Positions 12,295-64,000 of a stretch of 64,000 nt of DNA are shown one piece after another (position 1 is the stretch's first letter; every line of letters starts with the position of its first letter). The stretch is from Salinirubellus salinus. Its GTDB lineage: Archaea > Halobacteriota > Halobacteria > Halobacteriales > Haloarculaceae. The translations under genes and the position numbers were made by a program. Under the pieces are notes generated by a model, which made no database searches, was not told the DNA's origin, and was given only the letters and a program-made list of their open reading frames with translations. The stretch covers positions 744,001 through 808,000 of the forward strand of contig NZ_CP104003.1 of NCBI RefSeq assembly GCF_025231485.1, written 5' to 3'.

Positions 12295-15200
12295 CTACTC
12301 CTCGGGGACGCCCCAGTTCCGGCGCTCGGTGGGGCGCTCGCCCAGCGCCATCACGTCGAGCGGCTCGTCCTCCGTCTCGATGGCCTCCAGTGCCGCGCGG
12401 GCCGACGGGACGGTCGAGAAGTAGGTGACGACCTCCTCGACGGCGACCTCCAGCACGTCGCGGTCACGCGAGAGGATGAAGTCGATCTCGCCACGCTGGA
12501 CGGCGTCGGCCGGGTCGTCCCAGTCCTCGGGGGTCGTCACGTCGAAGTGGCGCTCGGCGACCTCGAGGATGCTGTCGAGGTTCTCGTCGGACTGCGAGAG
12601 GCCGCGCAGGCTCTCGAGGTCCACGAGCGCGGTGCCCTCCGTGGGGATGGGTTTGCCGACGGAGTCCTGCGACTTGAGGTAGGCCTTGCCGAACGAGCGG
12701 GCCGTCCCCATCACCTCGCCGGTGGACTTCATCTCCGGGCCGAGACGCGGGTCCGAGCCCGGCAGGCGGTCGAACGGGAGGACGACCTCCTTCACCGAGA
12801 CGTGCTCGGGAATCTGCTCGTGGGCCTTGAGCTCCGAGAGCGAGGCGCCGGCCATCACCTTCGCCGCGAGCTTGGCGATTGGGACACCCGTCGCCTTCGA
12901 GACGAACGGCACCGTGCGCGAGGAGCGCGGGTTCGCCTCCAGGACGTACACCTCTCCCTCGCGGACGGCGAGCTGGACGTTCAGCAGGCCGACGGTGTCC
13001 AGTGCGCGGGCGATGTCCAGTGTGACCTCGCGGACGCGCTCGAGCGTCTCCTGCGAGAGCGACCGCGGGGGGATCATGCAGGCCGAGTCGCCGGAGTGGA
13101 CCCCGGCCGTCTCGACGTGCTCCATGACGCCGCCGATGAGGACGTCCTCGCCGTCGGCGACCGCGTCAACGTCCAGCTCCACGGCGTCGGCGAGGAAGTC
13201 GTCGACGAGGATGGGTTTGTCCGGCGAGACGCGCACCGCCTCCTCGATGTACTCCTTCAGCTCCTCGTCGGAGAACACCACGTCCATCGCGCGCCCGCCG
13301 AGGACGTACGAGGGGCGGACGAGGACGGGGTAGCCGATGTCGTTGGCGAGGTCGAGCGCCTCGGCCTCGCTGGTCGCGGTGCCACCCTCGGGCTGCGCGA
13401 TGCCGAGGTCGTCCATCAGGCGGTTGAACCGGTCGCGGTCCTCTGCGAGGTCCATCGCGTCGACCGAGGTACCGAGCACCGAGCAGTCGAGGTCACGGCG
13501 CTCCAGTTCCCGTTCGAGCGGTTCGCCGATGTTGACGGAGGTCTGGCCGCCGAACTGGACCATCACGCCGTCTGCGTTCGTCGTCTCGATGACGTCGGCC
13601 ACCTCCTCGGCCGTGATGGGTTCGAAGAACAGGCCGTCGGAGGTGTCGTAGTCCGTCGAGACGGTCTCGGGGTTGTTGTTGACGACGTGGGCGTCGATAC
13701 CCTGCTCGCGCAGGGCGCGCACGGCGTGGACCGCGCAGTAGTCGAACTCGACGCCCTGCCCGATGCGGATGGGACCGCCGCCGACCACGACGACGCTGTC
13801 GACGTCCTCGTCGACGCGCACCTCGTTGCGAGCGATATCCGAGAGGGGGTCGCGGGCTGAGTAGTAGTACGGCGTCGTGGCCTCGAACTCGCCGGCGCAG
13901 GTGTCGACCTGCTTGAACCGACGGGCGGTCGACTGCTCCTCGACGTCGGTGACGGGGCCGCCCGCCGGGTCACCGATGCTCGCCACCTGCGCGACGGTCG
14001 CGTCGCCCGCGGCGAGCGCGGCGACTTGGTGGTCCGTGTAGCCGAGGTCGGTCGCCTGCGCGAAGTTGCCCTCCTGTGCCGCGGCGGCGCCCTCGGCGAC
14101 GTTGGCGAACCGCTCGACGTACCACTCGTGGATGTCGGTGAGTTCGACCACGCGGTCGACCGTGTAGCCCCGGTCGAACGCCTCGAACATCGCGTACGGC
14201 CGGTCGGGCGAGGGGTTGACGAGCAGGTCGTCCAGCCCCGAGTTCGACAGCTCGCCCCAGTCGACGGCCGGGTCGTACTCGCTCGACCGGAGGGCCTTCA
14301 GCAGCGACTCCTCGAACGTCCGACCGATGGCCATCGCCTCGCCCGTGGACTTCATGGCCGTCCCGAGGGTGAAGTCCACGTCGGTGAACTTGTCCTTCGG
14401 CCAGCGCGGGACCTTCGTCACGACGTAGTCGATTGCCGGCTCGAACGCCGCCGTGGTCTCGCCGGTGATCTCGTTCTGGATCTCGTGGAGGCGCTTGCCG
14501 AGTGCGACCTTCGCCGTCACGCGGGCGATGGGGTAGCCGGTCGCCTTCGAGGCGAGCGCCGAGGAACGGGAGACGCGCGGGTTCACCTCGACGACGCGGT
14601 ACTCCCCACCGGGCGTGCCGTCGTCCCGCCACGCGTGCTGGATGTTACAGCCGCCCTGGATGCCGAGTTCGCGGATGACCTTCAGCGCCGAGTCCCGCAT
14701 CTCCTGGTGGCCCTCGTCCGGGATGACCTGCGAGGGCGTGACGACCGTGGACTCCCCCGTGTGGATGCCCATCGGGTCGATGTTCTCCATGTTGCAGATG
14801 ATGATGCAGGAGTCGTCCGCGTCGCGCATCACCTCGTACTCCAGTTCGACCCACCCGGAGATGGACTCGGTGATGAGCACCTCGGAGTTGCGCGAGAGGC
14901 GCAGGCCCTTCCGGACGCGCTCGACGAGTTCCTCCATCTCCTCCACGACGCCCGACCCGCTCCCGCCGAGCGTGTAGGTCGTCCGGGAGATGACGGGGAG
15001 GCCACCGACCTCCTCGACGGCGTCCTCGACCTTCTGCCGGAAGCTCTCCTCGTCGAAGTCCGTCACGGACTCACCCTCGTCGAGCGAGATGGTGGTCGAG
15101 GCCGGGACGGGTTCGCCGATCTTCTCCATCCGCTGGCGGAACAGGTCGCGGTCCTCCGTCGCGTAGATGGTGTCCAGCGGCGTCCCCATGATGTCCACGT

Positions 15201-15543
15201 CGAACTCGTCGAGGACGCCCTCCTCGGCGAGCTCGGCGGTGACGTTGAGGCCGGTCTGGCCGCCCAGACCGGCGATGACGCCGTCCGGGCGCTCCTTCTC
15301 GATGATCTCCGCGATGGCCTCGACGGTGATTGGCTCGACGTACACCTTGTCGGCCATCTCCGGGTCCGTCATTATGGTCGCGGGGTTCGAGTTGACGAGG
15401 ACGACTCGGGCGCCCTCCTCTTGCAGCGCCCGGCACGCCTGTGCGCCGGAGTAGTCGAACTCCGCTGCCTGTCCGATCTGAATCGGGCCGCTCCCGATCA
15501 GGAGGATGGTACGGTCCTCGGTCGAGAGGTCCTCGTCGGTCAT
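12295..15543 (-). CDS. carB: Carbamoyl-phosphate synthase large subunit
   Basis: 1082 residues, full length. It starts with the N-terminal block LLIGSGPIQIGQAAEFDYSG, which recurs in the second half as VVVGGGPIRIGQGVEFDYC, showing the two ATP-grasp halves (carboxyphosphate and carbamate domains). The C-terminal 120 residues form the MGS-like allosteric domain. It works with the CarA glutaminase subunit to make carbamoyl phosphate for arginine and pyrimidines. carA is about 21 kb away on the other strand instead of adjacent. The upstream region shares a motif with carA, suggesting common control. Confidence 0.97.
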   Translation of the reverse strand: MTDEDLSTEDRTILLIGSGPIQIGQAAEFDYSGAQACRALQEEGARVVLVNSNPATIMTDPEMADKVYVEPITVEAIAEIIEKERPDGVIAGLGGQTGLNVTAELAEEGVLDEFDVDIMGTPLDTIYATEDRDLFRQRMEKIGEPVPASTTISLDEGESVTDFDEESFRQKVEDAVEEVGGLPVISRTTYTLGGSGSGVVEEMEELVERVRKGLRLSRNSEVLITESISGWVELEYEVMRDADDSCIIICNMENIDPMGIHTGESTVVTPSQVIPDEGHQEMRDSALKVIRELGIQGGCNIQHAWRDDGTPGGEYRVVEVNPRVSRSSALASKATGYPIARVTAKVALGKRLHEIQNEITGETTAAFEPAIDYVVTKVPRWPKDKFTDVDFTLGTAMKSTGEAMAIGRTFEESLLKALRSSEYDPAVDWGELSNSGLDDLLVNPSPDRPYAMFEAFDRGYTVDRVVELTDIHEWYVERFANVAEGAAAAQEGNFAQATDLGYTDHQVAALAAGDATVAQVASIGDPAGGPVTDVEEQSTARRFKQVDTCAGEFEATTPYYYSARDPLSDIARNEVRVDEDVDSVVVVGGGPIRIGQGVEFDYCAVHAVRALREQGIDAHVVNNNPETVSTDYDTSDGLFFEPITAEEVADVIETTNADGVMVQFGGQTSVNIGEPLERELERRDLDCSVLGTSVDAMDLAEDRDRFNRLMDDLGIAQPEGGTATSEAEALDLANDIGYPVLVRPSYVLGGRAMDVVFSDEELKEYIEEAVRVSPDKPILVDDFLADAVELDVDAVADGEDVLIGGVMEHVETAGVHSGDSACMIPPRSLSQETLERVREVTLDIARALDTVGLLNVQLAVREGEVYVLEANPRSSRTVPFVSKATGVPIAKLAAKVMAGASLSELKAHEQIPEHVSVKEVVLPFDRLPGSDPRLGPEMKSTGEVMGTARSFGKAYLKSQDSVGKPIPTEGTALVDLESLRGLSQSDENLDSILEVAERHFDVTTPEDWDDPADAVQRGEIDFILSRDRDVLEVAVEEVVTYFSTVPSARAALEAIETEDEPLDVMALGERPTERRNWGVPEE

Positions 15544-15601: not shown

Positions 15602-15652
15602 GCGAATTTCGAATATCGAATCGAGCAATCGTTACCGCTGCAGACCGTCCCG

Positions 15653-58410: not shown

Positions 58411-60672
58411 TCAGTCACCAAACAGTCGCTCGAACACGCCCCGCTCGCGAGCGCGCTCGGCCATCACTACCGAGCAGTCGATGTCGTCGACCACGTCCAG
58501 TACGACCGCGCCCCGAGCGAGCCGCGAGAGGAGCCCTCGCTCCGTCGCTCCGACGAGCACCATCGTGTGGTCGGCCGCAGCCCGCTCGATGGCCGCCTCG
58601 ACGTCACCCGTCTCGACCCGGAGTGTGGCGTCCGAGAGGTCGTGCGAGTCGGCCCACTGCTCGAGGAACGTCTCGCCCGCACGTTGCTCGTCCGCGACGT
58701 GGAGTAGCGTCACCTCGGCGTCGTGCCCCGCCTGGAGCAACTGAGCGAGCTCCGCCGAGAGGTCGGAGTCGGGGCCGCCGGCGGTCGGCACGAGCAGTCG
58801 ATCGGGGTCGAACCCACGGCCTCTCAACACCACGACGTCACATGGCAGGTCGTTGGCGAGGTCGTCGAACGCGCTCTCGGCTCGGCCCGGTGACCCGTGC
58901 ACATCCTCGCCCCAGCCCATCACCACGAGGTCGGCCTCGTGGTCGCGAGCCGCGTCGAACACCGCCTCGAAGCGTCGGTGTGAGAAGATTGTGTGGGTCT
59001 CGACCTCGACGCCGAACGTCTGTCCGTCCTGCACGGCGGCGTCGAGCGTCTCGTGATAGGCCTCGTCGAACGCCTCGGCGTGATCGGCAGCGTACTGGAG
59101 GGCGGTCTGTGCTGGCGCGGTGACGACGTGTACGGCGTCGACGGTACCGCCACGCTGTCTGGCGATGGCGCTCGCGAACGAGACGAGGTCTCGCTCGCTG
59201 TCCGGGTTCGACAGGGGCACCATCACCCGGTAGGCGCTCTCGTCGGGCTGGACGGTCTCGGCGGCCGAGACCGCCGCCGCCGGCATCTCGTCCGAACGAG
59301 AGAGGACGTACTGACTCAGGACGCCGGTCTTCTCGGCTTGCCCGCGGGCGTAGAGGAGGTACCACGCGAGTCCGCCGACCACGAACACCAGCGAGAGCGC
59401 GATCTCGACCCTGTCCATGAACCCGATGAGCCCGAACGACGTGACCGCACCGACGATGGGGACGACGGGGTAGAGTGGTACCTCGAACTCCGGCTGGTAG
59501 TCCGGGGTGTCGGCCTCACGCATCACGACGAGGGCGACGTTGAGCAGCCCGTACACGATGAGGTGGAGGACGCTCCCGGCCTTGGCGAGCACCTCCACGT
59601 CACCGATGCCGATGAACAGCAGGATGAGCCCGCCGGTGACGGCGATGCTCCGGTAAGGGGTGGCGAAGTTCGGGTGGATGGCGTTGAGTCTGTCCGAGAC
59701 GAGCCTGTCGCGCCCCATCGCGAAGTTGATGCGCGAGGAGGCGAGGATGGAGGCGTTCGCCGAGGACGCGGTCGCCAGCAGGCCGGCGAAGGTCAACAGC
59801 CCCACCCCGACTGCCGCGAGACCCACGGTCCCGAAGACGATCTCGGCGACGTCGAGGACGGGCGTCGTGGTGACCTCCGGGACGAGCTGGTGCCAGTCGA
59901 CGACCCCCATCAGCACCACCATGATGAGGGCGTACATGACGGTGACGACGAGGACGCTCCCGACGACCGCGAGCGGGAGGTTCCGGCCGGGGTTCTTCAG
60001 CTCCTCGGCGACGGTGGTAATCTTCGCGAAGCCGAGGAACGAGACGAACACGAGCCCGGTCGCGGGCAGCACGGCCGCGGCGCCGCCCGTCTCCGCGGGG
60101 AAGAACGGTCGTAGCGTCGCCACGTCCGCCCGGAGGAACCCGAGGACGGAGAAGACCGTGAGGATGCCCACGAGGAGGGTCACGATGACCACCTGCACGC
60201 TCCCGGTCTCCTTCGCGCCGACGTAGTTGACGCCGACGAACGCCAGCCCGGCCAGCAGCGCACCGACCTGATACTCCGAGAGCCCGAAGCCGCCGACCGC
60301 GACGGCCGGCAGCGGCAGGAACGTCGCGAGGTACTCTCCGAACCCGAGCGTGTAGAACGCCGACGCGAACGCCAGCCCCATCCAGTTCCCCCACCCGGCG
60401 ACGGAGCCGAACAGCGGGCCGAGCGCGTGGTTGACGTAGTAGTAGCTCCCACCGGCCTTCGGCATCGCCGTCCCGAGTTCCGAGGCCGATAACGCGGTGA
60501 ACAGTGAGATGACGCCCCCGACGACGAACGAGAGCGCGACTGCCGGCCCGGCCGCAGCCGCGGCCTGCCCCGGCAACACGAAGATGCCGGCACCGATCAT
60601 CGTGCCGACCCCGATGGTCAGCGCCGAGAGCAGGCCGAGGTCCTTCGCCAGCTCTTCGTCGTTCGCAGTCAT
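58411..60672 (-). CDS. APC-family amino-acid permease with two C-terminal USP domains
   Basis: 753 residues. Twelve-helix APC (LeuT-fold) transporter starting LLSALTIGVGTMIGAGIFVLPG, with the GxGxxAGTGIF-type unwound helix 1, then ASSANASILASSRINFAMGRDR. From about residue 470, two universal stress (USP) domains follow; the second keeps the ATP-binding pattern LVGATERGLLSRLARGAVVLDV. It probably imports amino acids or cationic solutes, with the USP domains sensing nucleotide. It follows the USP gene by 5 nt in an operon with the Lrp-RCK regulator, and is paralogous to the permease at 62493. Confidence 0.93.
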   Translation of the reverse strand: MTANDEELAKDLGLLSALTIGVGTMIGAGIFVLPGQAAAAAGPAVALSFVVGGVISLFTALSASELGTAMPKAGGSYYYVNHALGPLFGSVAGWGNWMGLAFASAFYTLGFGEYLATFLPLPAVAVGGFGLSEYQVGALLAGLAFVGVNYVGAKETGSVQVVIVTLLVGILTVFSVLGFLRADVATLRPFFPAETGGAAAVLPATGLVFVSFLGFAKITTVAEELKNPGRNLPLAVVGSVLVVTVMYALIMVVLMGVVDWHQLVPEVTTTPVLDVAEIVFGTVGLAAVGVGLLTFAGLLATASSANASILASSRINFAMGRDRLVSDRLNAIHPNFATPYRSIAVTGGLILLFIGIGDVEVLAKAGSVLHLIVYGLLNVALVVMREADTPDYQPEFEVPLYPVVPIVGAVTSFGLIGFMDRVEIALSLVFVVGGLAWYLLYARGQAEKTGVLSQYVLSRSDEMPAAAVSAAETVQPDESAYRVMVPLSNPDSERDLVSFASAIARQRGGTVDAVHVVTAPAQTALQYAADHAEAFDEAYHETLDAAVQDGQTFGVEVETHTIFSHRRFEAVFDAARDHEADLVVMGWGEDVHGSPGRAESAFDDLANDLPCDVVVLRGRGFDPDRLLVPTAGGPDSDLSAELAQLLQAGHDAEVTLLHVADEQRAGETFLEQWADSHDLSDATLRVETGDVEAAIERAAADHTMVLVGATERGLLSRLARGAVVLDVVDDIDCSVVMAERARERGVFERLFGD

Positions 60673-60677
60673 GCTCC

Positions 60678-61097
60678 CTACGCCTCCGAATCGGGGTCGG
60701 GGAGCGACACGACCGGACGGTTGGCCTGCGTAACGAGGGTGAGCGACCGGTCGCCGGCCAGGAACTGGACGATGCGCGGCCCACCTCGAGGACGGAACGC
60801 GATGGCGTCTACGTCCAGTCGGTCACCCGCCTCGACGATGCTCTCTACCACGTCCCGCCGATAGTCGGTCGCCAGTTCCGCGTCGGGGAACCGCTCCCGA
60901 AACGCCTCGAGGGACTCGGCAGCGAGCGTCTCAGACTGTTCTACGGGGGTCTTGTCCGGGACGCCGCCGCCCTTCTCGATGACGTGGAAGACGGTCACCC
61001 GGCCGGGCTGGTACGGTACGAGCGCCGCAGCGGTGGCCCGCGCGTCGTCCGGGTCAGCCACCGGGACGAGCACGTGGCCGTCGATGACGTCGGTCAT
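60678..61097 (-). CDS. Universal stress protein domain protein
   Basis: 139 residues from ATG at 61097. A single USP fold: HVLVPVADPDDARATAAALV at the start, a VTVFHVIEKGG strand, VDAIAFRPRGGPRIVQFLAG in place of the usual G-2x-G-9x-G ATP loop, ending PVVSLPDPDSEA. The ATP loop is degenerate, so nucleotide binding may be lost. It lies 7 nt after the zinc-ribbon gene and 5 nt before the permease gene in the same operon. Confidence 0.85.
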   Translation of the reverse strand: MTDVIDGHVLVPVADPDDARATAAALVPYQPGRVTVFHVIEKGGGVPDKTPVEQSETLAAESLEAFRERFPDAELATDYRRDVVESIVEAGDRLDVDAIAFRPRGGPRIVQFLAGDRSLTLVTQANRPVVSLPDPDSEA

Positions 61098-61104
61098 GTC
61101 GGGT

Positions 61105-61254
61105 TCAGGTGAGTCGGTAGGTCGCGACCTCCTCGGCACCGCACTCCCCGCACTCGGACTGGTCCTCCGCAACTGTCGTGCCGCAGTTCCGACACTCGCG
61201 GAGGACGCGTTCGGCACCGAGGACGCGCCGGAGCAGGATATCGAGGGTCGACAT
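61105..61254 (-). CDS. 49-aa zinc-ribbon protein
   Basis: Minus strand ATG at 61254 to TGA at 61105. It reads MSTLDILLRRVLGAERVLRE and then CRNCG ... CGECG, two CxxC(G) pairs 11 residues apart, ending VATYRLT. Tightly packed between the Lrp-RCK gene (8-nt gap) and the USP gene (7-nt gap), so clearly part of the operon. A free zinc ribbon of this size could bind the regulator or RNA; function unknown. Confidence 0.8.
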   Translation of the reverse strand: MSTLDILLRRVLGAERVLRECRNCGTTVAEDQSECGECGAEEVATYRLT

Positions 61255-61262
61255 CGGCTTCC

Positions 61263-62042
61263 CTAGTGAGTGCTCTCGGAGGCTGTTTCGTCAGCCCGGA
61301 AGATCGCGAGGGCGTCGGTGTCCTCACCTCGTGAGAGGACGGTCACGATGTCGTCGGGCTGGACGACCGTGTCGCCGTGTGGAGTCAACTCCTCGTCGCC
61401 GCGTTCGATGGCGATGACGAGTGTGTCCTGGTCGAGGATGCCCTGCCGAGCGGCGGCCTCCAGCGTGCGCCCCGCGATGGGGGCGTTCGGCTGGACGGTC
61501 ACCTCGACGACGCTCGCGTCGCCGGTGAGGCTGATGAAGTCGTTCGCCTCGGGCGCCTCGCCCCGGTCGTCGGGGTCGTACGGACTGAACGGAGCGAACA
61601 GCTCCTCTTCGACGAGGTCCTCGTCCTCGATGTGGATGCCGATGTCGCTGAGTCGACGGGCGATGCGCCGGAGGTCGTCCGTACTCCCCCCGACCGCGAG
61701 GACGTGGAGGTTGCGCCGGCCGGTCATCAAGGTCCGGACGTTGATTACCCCGGGGATGGCCCGGGCCTCGTGAGCGAGCGCCTCGCGCTCGGTGACCGGG
61801 ACGTCACAGAGATAGAGGTTGGTGAGTTTGCCGTCGGCCAGTTCGAAGTCCACCTGCGCGGTGTAACCGCGGACGATGCCCGCGTCTTCGAGCTTGTGGA
61901 TCCGGTTGCGGACGGTGGCGCCGGAGACGCCGGCTCGTTCGGCGAGCGCACTGGCCGATGCGTTGCGAGCGTCCTGCATGAGCGTATGGAGTATCCGTCG
62001 GTCGAGTTCGTCGAGCCGGTGGTCGCTACGTGGATATGGCAT
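61263..62042 (-). CDS. Lrp/AsnC regulator fused to a TrkA-C (RCK_C) domain
   Basis: 259 residues. HTH RRILHTLMQDARNASASALAERAGVSGATVRNRIHKLEDAGIV at about 15-58, an Lrp RAM-type middle domain (DVPVTEREALAHEARAIPGV ... NLHVLAVGGST), and a C-terminal TrkA-C domain (VVEVTVQPNAPIAGRTLEAA ... DDIVTVLSRGEDTDALAIF). TrkA-C domains bind small ligands and often gate transporters. First gene of the lrp-znr-usp-permease operon and divergent from the paralogous permease, so it probably controls both. Confidence 0.92.
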   Translation of the reverse strand: MPYPRSDHRLDELDRRILHTLMQDARNASASALAERAGVSGATVRNRIHKLEDAGIVRGYTAQVDFELADGKLTNLYLCDVPVTEREALAHEARAIPGVINVRTLMTGRRNLHVLAVGGSTDDLRRIARRLSDIGIHIEDEDLVEEELFAPFSPYDPDDRGEAPEANDFISLTGDASVVEVTVQPNAPIAGRTLEAAARQGILDQDTLVIAIERGDEELTPHGDTVVQPDDIVTVLSRGEDTDALAIFRADETASESTH

Positions 62043-62112
62043 GGGGAGTGGGGTGAGTTCGATATCGCAAATCTAGTTGGACACGTACTACCATAATACT
62101 TGCCGCGAGTAG

Positions 62113-62144: not shown

Positions 62145-62323
62145 ACCTCAGCGTCCGCCCCCAACGGCGGTTCGTTCGCATACCCGCTACAGAGGCCCCT
62201 GAAACGGGCACATCGGCGACGTAGTTCGACGGCGGTTCACGGACGGTGGGGACTCGACGAGATGCATCTCTCCGCGAGTGCGACCTCTTCTATCACGGAT
62301 TGAAAGAATCAGGCCACTCAAAA

Positions 62324-62335
62324 TTCGATTTCGAA
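62324..62335. promoter_or_regulatory. Dyad TTCGA-TT-TCGAA, candidate Lrp site
   Basis: AT-rich dyad ending 12 nt upstream of the TATA-like box of the second permease unit. It resembles the ATTCG/CGAAT half-sites upstream of carB. Confidence 0.4.
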
Positions 62336-62347
62336 AATTATGACGGC

Positions 62348-62379: not shown

Positions 62380-62493
62380 ATGGAAGCGAAACCGGTCCGG
62401 GAGGAGGTACGCTGTAGCCGAACCTCCGGGACCCGACCGTCGGGGTCGACGGCTGCGAGGGGTGTCCGAGTCGTTCGCACGGGGGCGAGCTGA
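62380..62493 (+). CDS. Candidate 37-aa leaderless upstream ORF
   Basis: ATG to TGA, MEAKPVREEVRCSRTSGTRP onward, rich in Arg and Ser/Thr rather than acidic. Its TGA overlaps the permease ATG by one base (TGATG). With the TATA-like box 25-32 nt upstream, the transcript would start at this ATG, making it the first thing translated. It could be a leader controlling the permease by coupling. A coincidental frame cannot be excluded. Confidence 0.4.
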   Translation: MEAKPVREEVRCSRTSGTRPSGSTAARGVRVVRTGAS

Positions 62494-64000
62494 TGGCCGA
62501 CGAGGAGCTGGCCAAGGACCTCGGGTTGCTCTCGGCGCTCACCATCGGGATCGGGACGATGATCGGTGCGGGTATCTTCGTCCTCCCCGGCGTCGCTGCG
62601 AGTACCGCCGGTCCGATCGTGGTCGTCTCGTTCATCGTGGGTGGGGCGATCGCCCTGGTGAACGCGCTGTCGGTCTCCGAACTCGGGACGGCGATGCCGA
62701 AGGCCGGTGGCGGCTACTACTACGTCAACCGCGCGCTCGGCCCGCTGTTCGGCTCCATCGCCGGTCTCGGCGACTGGGTCGGTCTGGCGTTCGCCTCCGC
62801 GTTCTACAGCATCGGCTTCGGCCAGTACCTCGCCACGCTGGTCCCGATACCGGGCGTCCTCTTCCTCAACGAGGTACAGGTGGGGGCACTCGTCGCCGGC
62901 GCCGTCTTCGTCGGCGTCAACTACGTCGGCGCCAAGGAGACGGGCGGCGTCCAGACGGTCATCGTGACCCTGCTGTTGGCCATCCTCACCCTGTTCGCGA
63001 TACAGGGCTGGCTCTCGTTCGACTTCGGGACGCTGCTCGGCGACGGTGGCCTGGCACCGCTCGGCTACGGCGCCATCCTCCCGGGGACGGCGCTGGTGTT
63101 CGTCTCGTTCCTCGGCTACGCGAAGATCGCGACCGTCGCCGAGGAGCTGAAGAACCCCGGCCGGAACCTCCCGCTCGCGGTCGTCGGGAGCGTCCTCGTC
63201 GTCACCGTCATGTACGCGGTGCTGGTGAGCATCATGCTGGGCGTGGTGCCGTGGCCCGAGTTGAGTCAGTCCGCGCCGCTGACGCAGGCCACGCAGCTCG
63301 CGTTCCCCGGCGGGTTCGCCGGCATCGCGGTCTCCGTCGTCACGCTCGGGGCGTTGCTCGCCACGGCGTCGTCGGCCAACGCCTCCATCCTCGCGTCGGC
63401 CCGCATCAACTTCGCGATGGGCCGTGACCGCATCGTCACCAACTGGCTGAACGAGATCCACCCCTCGTTTGCGACGCCGTACCGCTCCATCCTCGTCACG
63501 GGCGCCATCATCGTCGTGTTCATCGCGGCGCTCGGGACTCGCATCGAGGTGCTGGCGAAGGCCGCGAGCGTGCTCCACCTCGTCGTCTACGCGCTGATGA
63601 ACGCTGCGTTGATCGTCTTCCGCGAGACCGACCCGGAGTACGACCCGGCGTTCCGCGTCCCGCTGTACCCCTTCACCCCGATACTGGGTATCGGGCTGTC
63701 GCTGGGCCTGCTCGCGTTCGTCGGCCAACAGGAACTGCTCCTATCGACGGTGTTCGTCGTCGTCGCGGTGGTGTGGTACTTCGTGTACGCTCGCGGCCAC
63801 GCGACCCGGCAGGGGCTGCTCGGGCGGTACGTCCTCGACCGCAGCGACGACCTCCCGCCGCCCGTCGTCGGTGCGGCGGCGACCGTCGCCCCGAACGGGG
63901 CCGGACAGTCGGACGCGCCGACGACGATGGTCGCGCTGTCGAACCCGCGAACCGAGCGGGCGCTGGTGTCGCTCGGCGCCGCCCTCGCGAGACACGACGG
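62493..64000 (+). CDS. APC-family amino-acid permease, paralogue (3' end outside window)
   Basis: Starts MADEELAKDLGLLSALTIGI at ATG 62493 and is still open at the right edge (about 502 residues seen). It is clearly paralogous to the permease at 58411: shared MIGAGIFVLPG, KNPGRNLPLAVVGSVLVVTV and ASSANASILASARINFAMGRDR. The region beyond about residue 470 (VALSNPRTERALVSLG) begins a USP-like domain, so it probably has the same fusion. Its start codon overlaps the stop of a 37-codon upstream ORF. Divergent from the Lrp-RCK operon. Confidence 0.93.
   Translation, partial: MADEELAKDLGLLSALTIGIGTMIGAGIFVLPGVAASTAGPIVVVSFIVGGAIALVNALSVSELGTAMPKAGGGYYYVNRALGPLFGSIAGLGDWVGLAFASAFYSIGFGQYLATLVPIPGVLFLNEVQVGALVAGAVFVGVNYVGAKETGGVQTVIVTLLLAILTLFAIQGWLSFDFGTLLGDGGLAPLGYGAILPGTALVFVSFLGYAKIATVAEELKNPGRNLPLAVVGSVLVVTVMYAVLVSIMLGVVPWPELSQSAPLTQATQLAFPGGFAGIAVSVVTLGALLATASSANASILASARINFAMGRDRIVTNWLNEIHPSFATPYRSILVTGAIIVVFIAALGTRIEVLAKAASVLHLVVYALMNAALIVFRETDPEYDPAFRVPLYPFTPILGIGLSLGLLAFVGQQELLLSTVFVVVAVVWYFVYARGHATRQGLLGRYVLDRSDDLPPPVVGAAATVAPNGAGQSDAPTTMVALSNPRTERALVSLGAALARHD

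Follow-up and report, generated by a model that had tools for sequence, protein, structure and literature searches.

A zinc-ribbon microprotein gene recurrently linked to Lrp-TrkA_C regulator genes in haloarchaea, and its candidate role as a co-regulator

In this study, we revisited a 49-aa open reading frame in a 64-kb stretch of haloarchaeal DNA (64,000 nucleotides, referred to here as the window). This frame, named znr, is a microprotein gene of the CPxCG class lying in an operon-like run, and we propose that its product is most likely a co-regulator of the neighbouring Lrp-TrkA_C protein, a role to which we give about an even chance. We infer this role from gene linkage together with the Brz/Bat precedent considered below. 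A ribbon subfamily that has been kept with one regulator type through rearrangements offers a concrete and cheap test of microproteins as co-regulators, and the ribbon may be a missing subunit of TrkA_C-bearing Lrp proteins, for which an effector has so far only been suggested. The genes concerned are the following:

61105..61254, minus strand: znr, a 49-aa zinc-ribbon microprotein with an ATG start
61263..62042, minus strand: lrp, an Lrp/AsnC-type regulator of 259 aa with a C-terminal TrkA_C (RCK_C) domain (Pfam)
60678..61097, minus strand: a stand-alone universal stress protein (USP) of 139 aa (Pfam Usp 25.3 bits, cut-off 24)
58411..60672, minus strand: an APC-family amino-acid permease of 753 aa with C-terminal USP domains (Pfam)
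62493..64000, plus strand: a second APC permease, divergent, running past the window end (identified from the sequence)

The minus-strand genes follow one another in the order lrp, znr, USP and permease-USP with gaps of 8, 7 and 5 bp, znr being the second gene, and we regard them as an operon-like run that is presumably co-transcribed. The preliminary description of this DNA had pointed out a 49-aa frame with two CxxC pairs placed tightly between the regulator and USP genes, and its coordinates, cysteines and spacing proved right; it gave no strand. The regulator matches an AsnC-type HTH family (8.3e-13) and TrkA_C (1.6e-12), both above the Pfam cut-offs, and thus has the domain pair that marks Trh2-type Lrp/FFRP proteins. 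No RAM-type family was present among its 24 Pfam matches up to E 0.1, and a low-confidence model places strands and helices at residues 72-133. The permease-USP protein matches AA_permease_2 (2.9e-46) and, in two stretches, Usp (2.4e-23); the second permease is 65-67% identical to it (tblastn).

The minus-strand translation of 61105-61254 is MSTLDILLRRVLGAERVLRECRNCGTTVAEDQSECGECGAEEVATYRLT followed by a stop codon (49 aa), which comprises a hydrophobic N-terminal stretch, an ECRNCG ... CGECG ribbon and a VATYRL C-terminus. The cysteines are laid out as C-x2-C-x10-C-x2-C, that is, two CxxCG pairs about 10 residues apart, and the plus strand of the same interval, in the given frame, does not encode the ribbon protein. 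Many spurious frames arise in GC-rich DNA, and this one could in principle be a chance product; we consider this extremely improbable, since the cysteines and the position of the frame are conserved and dN/dS is well below 1. Homologues with identical cysteines occupy the same position in other genera, and when 22 of the 38 intact lrp-linked homologues are aligned, E20, C21, R22, C24, G25, C35 and C38 prove invariant. Codon-by-codon comparison gave dN/dS values of 0.04-0.41 in 12 of 14 homologue pairs, these 12 being the pairs with unsaturated dS; the values for the type closest to the window ribbon were 0.13 (L037/L067) and 0.15 (L037/L157), and dS was saturated in both pairs that included znr itself. 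On this comparative sequence evidence, the frame is a real gene under selection.

The AlphaFold model of the ribbon, made from a two-row alignment, shows a long N-terminal helix (mean pLDDT 69), and that of the regulator comes from a nine-row alignment (mean pLDDT 60); both models were too weak for fold searches, and neither is taken as evidence here. A PDB sequence search with the ribbon returned six matches up to E 1, the best being reverse gyrase (0.0093). A scan of viral contigs with the 22-member ribbon alignment matched 13 stretches, none of which was confirmed, and the matches to PHROGs were all weak, with function mostly unassigned. Elsewhere in the window, a 37-aa frame at 2396-2509 on the minus strand (MYYYECTECGTRYLS...CSKCDG) contains a CxxCG ribbon with a weak profile score of 13.7 and is possibly another CPxCG microprotein.

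We show here that 40 of 118 Lrp-TrkA_C genes have a ribbon homologue no more than 450 bp away (profile search, score cut 25), while the same profile found none at 30 canonical Lrp loci and three at 30 USP loci, two of these three having the gene order of the window. The preliminary description had proposed to look for the small frame next to Lrp-RCK genes elsewhere, and it does recur there, in three orientations with respect to the regulator gene. The rest of the 118 loci (310,622 bp) contained no ribbon at 25 bits or more, and at a cut of 20 one far match appears. A fixed pattern used without the profile gave 31/118 for Lrp-TrkA_C, 0/30 for canonical Lrp and 3/30 for USP loci, with no far match; the lower count of 31 reflects longer, acidic-tailed ribbons that were missed because stop-to-stop frames were capped at 130 aa and the pattern was fixed. 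The profile count is partly circular, as the profile was made from the 31 pattern matches and the pattern itself was set after the first cases were known. The 118 loci, representing 116 different regulator sequences, are the closest relatives of the window regulator and hence a non-random sample, consisting of 110 loci from the first 112 entries of the regulator search plus eight named haloarchaeal loci. Two ribbon-bearing stretches were left out as duplicates (G013:C142, identical to L006, and G067:C2, identical to L014), and five remote non-haloarchaeal matches (L072-L076) were dropped.

In 30 of the 40 linked cases the ribbon is downstream of lrp, in six upstream and in four convergent to it. 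For 25 of the 28 intact downstream ribbons the offset between the lrp stop and the ribbon start is between -4 and +24 bp (median 5.5 for all 28), the exceptions being at -185 (L110, where the lrp end is probably misplaced), 91 and 128 bp. The 39 unnamed linked cases are spread over nine families and 23 genera by a hand tally; the 40 cases are not independent, however, as a single family (f7) accounts for 24 of them. In many of its downstream members (L095, L096, L102-L128) the ribbon is followed by a long, poorly conserved acidic tail, which can reach about 100 aa. When loci are labelled as linked or unlinked (from the 31-locus count), the Lrp tree requires 19 changes of label, or at least 11 when well-supported branches alone are counted, which reflects repeated loss and possibly repeated gain of the ribbon. 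The frame is broken in two of the 40 copies (L046 and L050), leaving 38 intact, and L111 holds an apparent decayed remnant that was not counted; these broken or decayed copies are a sign of repeated loss. A ribbon is absent nearby in 78 of the 118 loci, so that the regulator can do without a ribbon in cis; this, together with the two broken frames and the decayed copy, speaks against the co-regulator role. An apparent fusion of ribbon and regulator at L096 was rejected, the frame being an overlapping alternative one and the ribbon having its own ATG 2 bp after the lrp stop. A blastp comparison of the lrp, usp and permease products with the ribbon-bearing frames gave no match. The lack of any fusion with the regulator among these loci is a further point against the co-regulator role.

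Since USP is the immediate neighbour of znr in the window, the ribbon might instead be a subunit of the USP or the permease, or a folding or metal accessory of one of them. A same-strand USP gene is found within 700 bp of lrp in 10 of the 30 downstream cases, and at one locus (L230) ribbon, USP and permease are kept together while lrp is seen, by eye, only as an apparent remnant, an arrangement that favours such an attachment and tells against the regulator as partner. However, no such USP gene is present in the other 20 of the 30 cases, and in family f7 the stretch after lrp in the fetched locus is free of USP and permease matches in 17 of 18 downstream cases; the constant neighbour of the ribbon is therefore the regulator and not the USP or the permease. 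Seen from the USP side, a ribbon is present at three of 30 loci only, two of them with the window gene order. Overall, we regard a role with the USP or permease as highly doubtful. The same order is found on named plasmids of two other haloarchaea. In Haloferax larsenii the order lrp-ribbon-usp is the same, TrkH adjoins the run and the ribbon is annotated as a 'zinc-ribbon domain-containing protein'; on a named plasmid of Salinigranum rubrum, lrp, usp and permease surround a gap with no listed gene, in which a ribbon match is found. The earlier view that the gene is hidden thus applies to the Salinigranum copy, where the gene table is incomplete, and not to the Haloferax copy.

When viewed from the side of the ribbon, the association is one of several. 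With the 49-aa ribbon as query, 223 of 293 genomes of the taxonomic order gave a match at E<=0.001, and the regulator query gave a match at E<=1e-20 in 274 of the 293. We sorted 73 ribbon loci by context: 10 adjoin Lrp-TrkA_C, 22 belong to an ArdC plasmid cassette, five are within 1 kb of trkH or trkA, two with USP/permease and no recognised lrp, and 34 in other contexts, among them L004 and L026, in which the ribbon was not re-found and the context is unclassified. These loci comprise L001-L033 and 40 stretches picked by hand from non-consecutive ranks of the ribbon matches, and the Lrp share is underestimated because at least four unpicked matches (G160:C171, G037:C33, G057:C12 and G054:C3) adjoin Lrp-TrkA_C genes by coordinates. 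The link is strong from the regulator's side, and from the ribbon's side it is one context among several. The suggestion in the preliminary description that the protein partners an Lrp-RCK regulator is accordingly borne out as a recurrent linkage that is not exclusive, and the many ribbons away from Lrp weigh against the co-regulator role.

The ArdC setting is a conserved haloarchaeal plasmid cassette in which close relatives of the ribbon are encoded, on the opposite strand, between a gene for an ArdC-like ssDNA-binding protein and a short hypothetical gene; cassette loci include L007, L009-L013, L015, L017, L019, L022, L024, L027, L031, L033 and L220. The genome from which the window was taken also has a paralogous ribbon (L002, C1:2616606-2616734; 51% identity over 41 residues), located 166 bp from a gene that we take to be peroxiredoxin-like.

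This breadth of the family, with nearly half of the sampled loci in mixed contexts and a large plasmid-cassette group, would fit a generic CPxCG microprotein acting on RNA or the ribosome, or in metal buffering, that merely rides in the operon. Haloferax volcanii is reported to have 49 C(P)XCG microproteins, and zinc was bound by 9 of 14 that were purified (PMC11241148), which is in line with a generic role and also means that zinc binding by znr should not be assumed. The occurrence of a ribbon at 40/118 Lrp-TrkA_C against 0/30 canonical Lrp loci, in three orientations, is hard to reconcile with passive riding, and we judge this explanation decidedly unlikely.

A further explanation is that the ribbon is an accessory of potassium and TrkA_C modules in general (TrkA, TrkH and Lrp-TrkA_C), for example an adaptor for RCK_C domains, rather than a specific co-regulator. 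Of the 118 Lrp-TrkA_C genes (loci L034-L156), 35 have trkA or trkH no more than 1.5 kb away, against none at the 30 canonical Lrp loci, which points to the regulator type, with or without a ribbon, being tied to potassium homeostasis. This neighbourhood also speaks for the co-regulator role. Ribbon-bearing loci have trk nearby more often (17/40) than ribbon-less ones (18/78; Fisher p 0.035, ignoring relatedness). On a Halobacterium plasmid (L218, 1209-4135) a ribbon frame that is not listed as a gene comes after trkA and trkH, overlapping trkH at its end, and the Haloferax larsenii run has TrkH next to it. Of the four convergent ribbons, three (L131, L133 and L138) follow a TrkA-like gene on the same strand at about 110-120 bp and are not co-directional with lrp, a point against the co-regulator role, and at L049 the TrkA gene comes after the ribbon. 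The five ribbon loci with trkH or trkA close by are also not beside Lrp. Set against these observations, ribbons are far fewer beside trk alone than beside Lrp-TrkA_C, and ribbon-less Lrp-TrkA_C loci likewise have trk nearby; we therefore consider a general potassium-module accessory unlikely. A further reading is a two-part haloarchaeal osmotic or potassium regulator, in which the Lrp-TrkA_C protein would work with a separate ribbon subunit that recognises TrkA_C (RCK_C), with output set by metal or redox state, and the same adaptor family would serve TrkA and TrkH. We offer this as a tentative and rather unlikely possibility.

A dyad-like sequence, TTTYGNAAAYCGAAA, is found upstream of the regulator gene in relatives. 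This imperfect motif was aligned by eye from upstream sequences, with the window's own upstream sequence also in view, and 12 sites from other loci were turned into a matrix with which all 64 kb of the window were searched. Both of the two best matches fall in the 450 bp that separate lrp from the divergent permease:

62323..62337, minus strand: operator-like site upstream of the divergent permease, the window's best match (score 19.3)
62057..62071, minus strand: operator-like site upstream of lrp, the window's second-best match (score 15.8)

Best scores in 20 random first-order Markov windows were 10.9-16.8, with four of the 20 above 15.8; the match at 19.3 stands out from random windows, and that at 15.8 alone does not. 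Of 102 non-training loci, 37 exceeded the 95% level of mononucleotide-shuffled upstream sequence, about five being expected. We take the motif as supportive only, since AT content is higher in intergenic DNA than in the genome as a whole, and since the window's upstream sequence was in view when the motif was picked out by eye. Perfect dyads were also counted in the sequences upstream of lrp, and none was shared. The third-best match in the window (15607-15621, score 15.0) is located just upstream of a large minus-strand gene at 12295-15543, which presumably encodes a carbamoyl-phosphate-synthase-like protein.

According to the model that we favour, sites resembling TTTYGNAAAYCGAAA would be occupied by the regulator both over its own promoter and over that of the divergent permease, while its TrkA_C domain would, by analogy, read an ionic or osmotic signal such as potassium, a nucleotide or c-di-AMP. 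The ribbon might use its hydrophobic N-terminal segment, together with the invariant ECRxCG face, to attach to the regulator, and once docked it could strengthen or weaken either DNA binding by the regulator or the way in which the regulator contacts the basal transcription machinery. In this way the ribbon would tune expression of the transporter and USP genes through Lrp-TrkA_C. Zinc binding, physical contact, the sign of regulation and the effector are parts of the model that we infer, and gene neighbours can persist without physical interaction.

The CPxCG class has been defined as proteins of less than 100 aa with two Cys/His patterns 7-40 residues apart, at least one of them CPxCG, CxxCG or CPxCx (PMC2253796). 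With CRNCG and CGECG separated by about 10 residues in 49 aa, znr has these properties. It exceeds no Pfam or NCBIfam cut-off, scoring below the curated values (given in brackets) of Zn_Ribbon_1 at 21.9 (25), DUF7129 at 16.2 (30) and NCBIfam rubre_like_arch at 16.0 (32), while some relatives exceed those of Pfam Zn_Ribbon_1 (L067 25.6, L124 25.2, L220 26.9) and Zn_ribbon_TFIIS (L055, 22.8 against 21). DUF7129 was matched by all 22 aligned ribbons at E<=0.01 (best E 7.1e-7), and none of seven proteins scored singly reached 30 bits. Within the class, the znr subfamily is set apart by its own signature, ECRxCG with a mostly I/V-A-x-Y tail, and by its recurrent linkage with one regulator type. The phenotypes of zinc-finger microprotein deletions are described as leaving the mechanisms hidden so far (PMC6562870). 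One protein of Haloferax volcanii, HVO_0758, has 56 aa, a single zinc finger and a protruding N-terminal helix resembling an interaction domain; by this description it is similar to znr, and the passages on HVO_0758 do not mention an Lrp neighbour (PMC10716476).

On the regulator's side, Trh2 (VNG1285G) of Halobacterium salinarum is an Lrp/FFRP protein with a TrkA-C domain, through which a response to K+ or NAD+ has been suggested (PMC4236453). Its likeness to the window regulator is one of domains, the set being the same, and the word 'zinc' is absent from the main text of that paper. In the open-licence PMC literature, at the level of titles and the starts of abstracts, we found no description of a zinc-ribbon partner of Lrp-TrkA_C proteins. 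A bacterial parallel is BusR, a c-di-AMP-responsive repressor of an osmolyte transporter with a wHTH and an RCK_C domain, the latter converting bound nucleotide into DNA binding (PMC8517857). It is alike by analogy, joining an HTH to RCK_C/TrkA_C in the control of osmotic transport, but it is bacterial and its HTH is of the GntR type with a coiled coil. We know of no zinc-ribbon partner of BusR. Haloferax is reported to require c-di-AMP under standard conditions, and osmoregulation is discussed in that context (PMC6741144).

The closest precedent is the Brz/Bat system of Halobacterium salinarum, in which Brz regulates bop and is encoded in the Bat gene cluster; it has been suggested as a possibility that the Bat and Brz proteins cooperate, and two Bat homologues have small zinc-finger genes nearby (PMC2253796). 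By description, the likeness lies in a small zinc-finger protein encoded near a regulator, and the ribbon shares the recurrent regulator neighbourhood. Bat itself, with GAF, PAS/PAC and HTH domains, belongs to another regulator family than Lrp-TrkA_C. The preliminary description regarded znr as a good candidate for a new small regulatory protein, and this holds in part: what is new is the ribbon subfamily and its pairing with Lrp-TrkA_C regulators, whereas its kind, a zinc-finger microprotein of the CPxCG class in a Brz/Bat-like arrangement, is already known.
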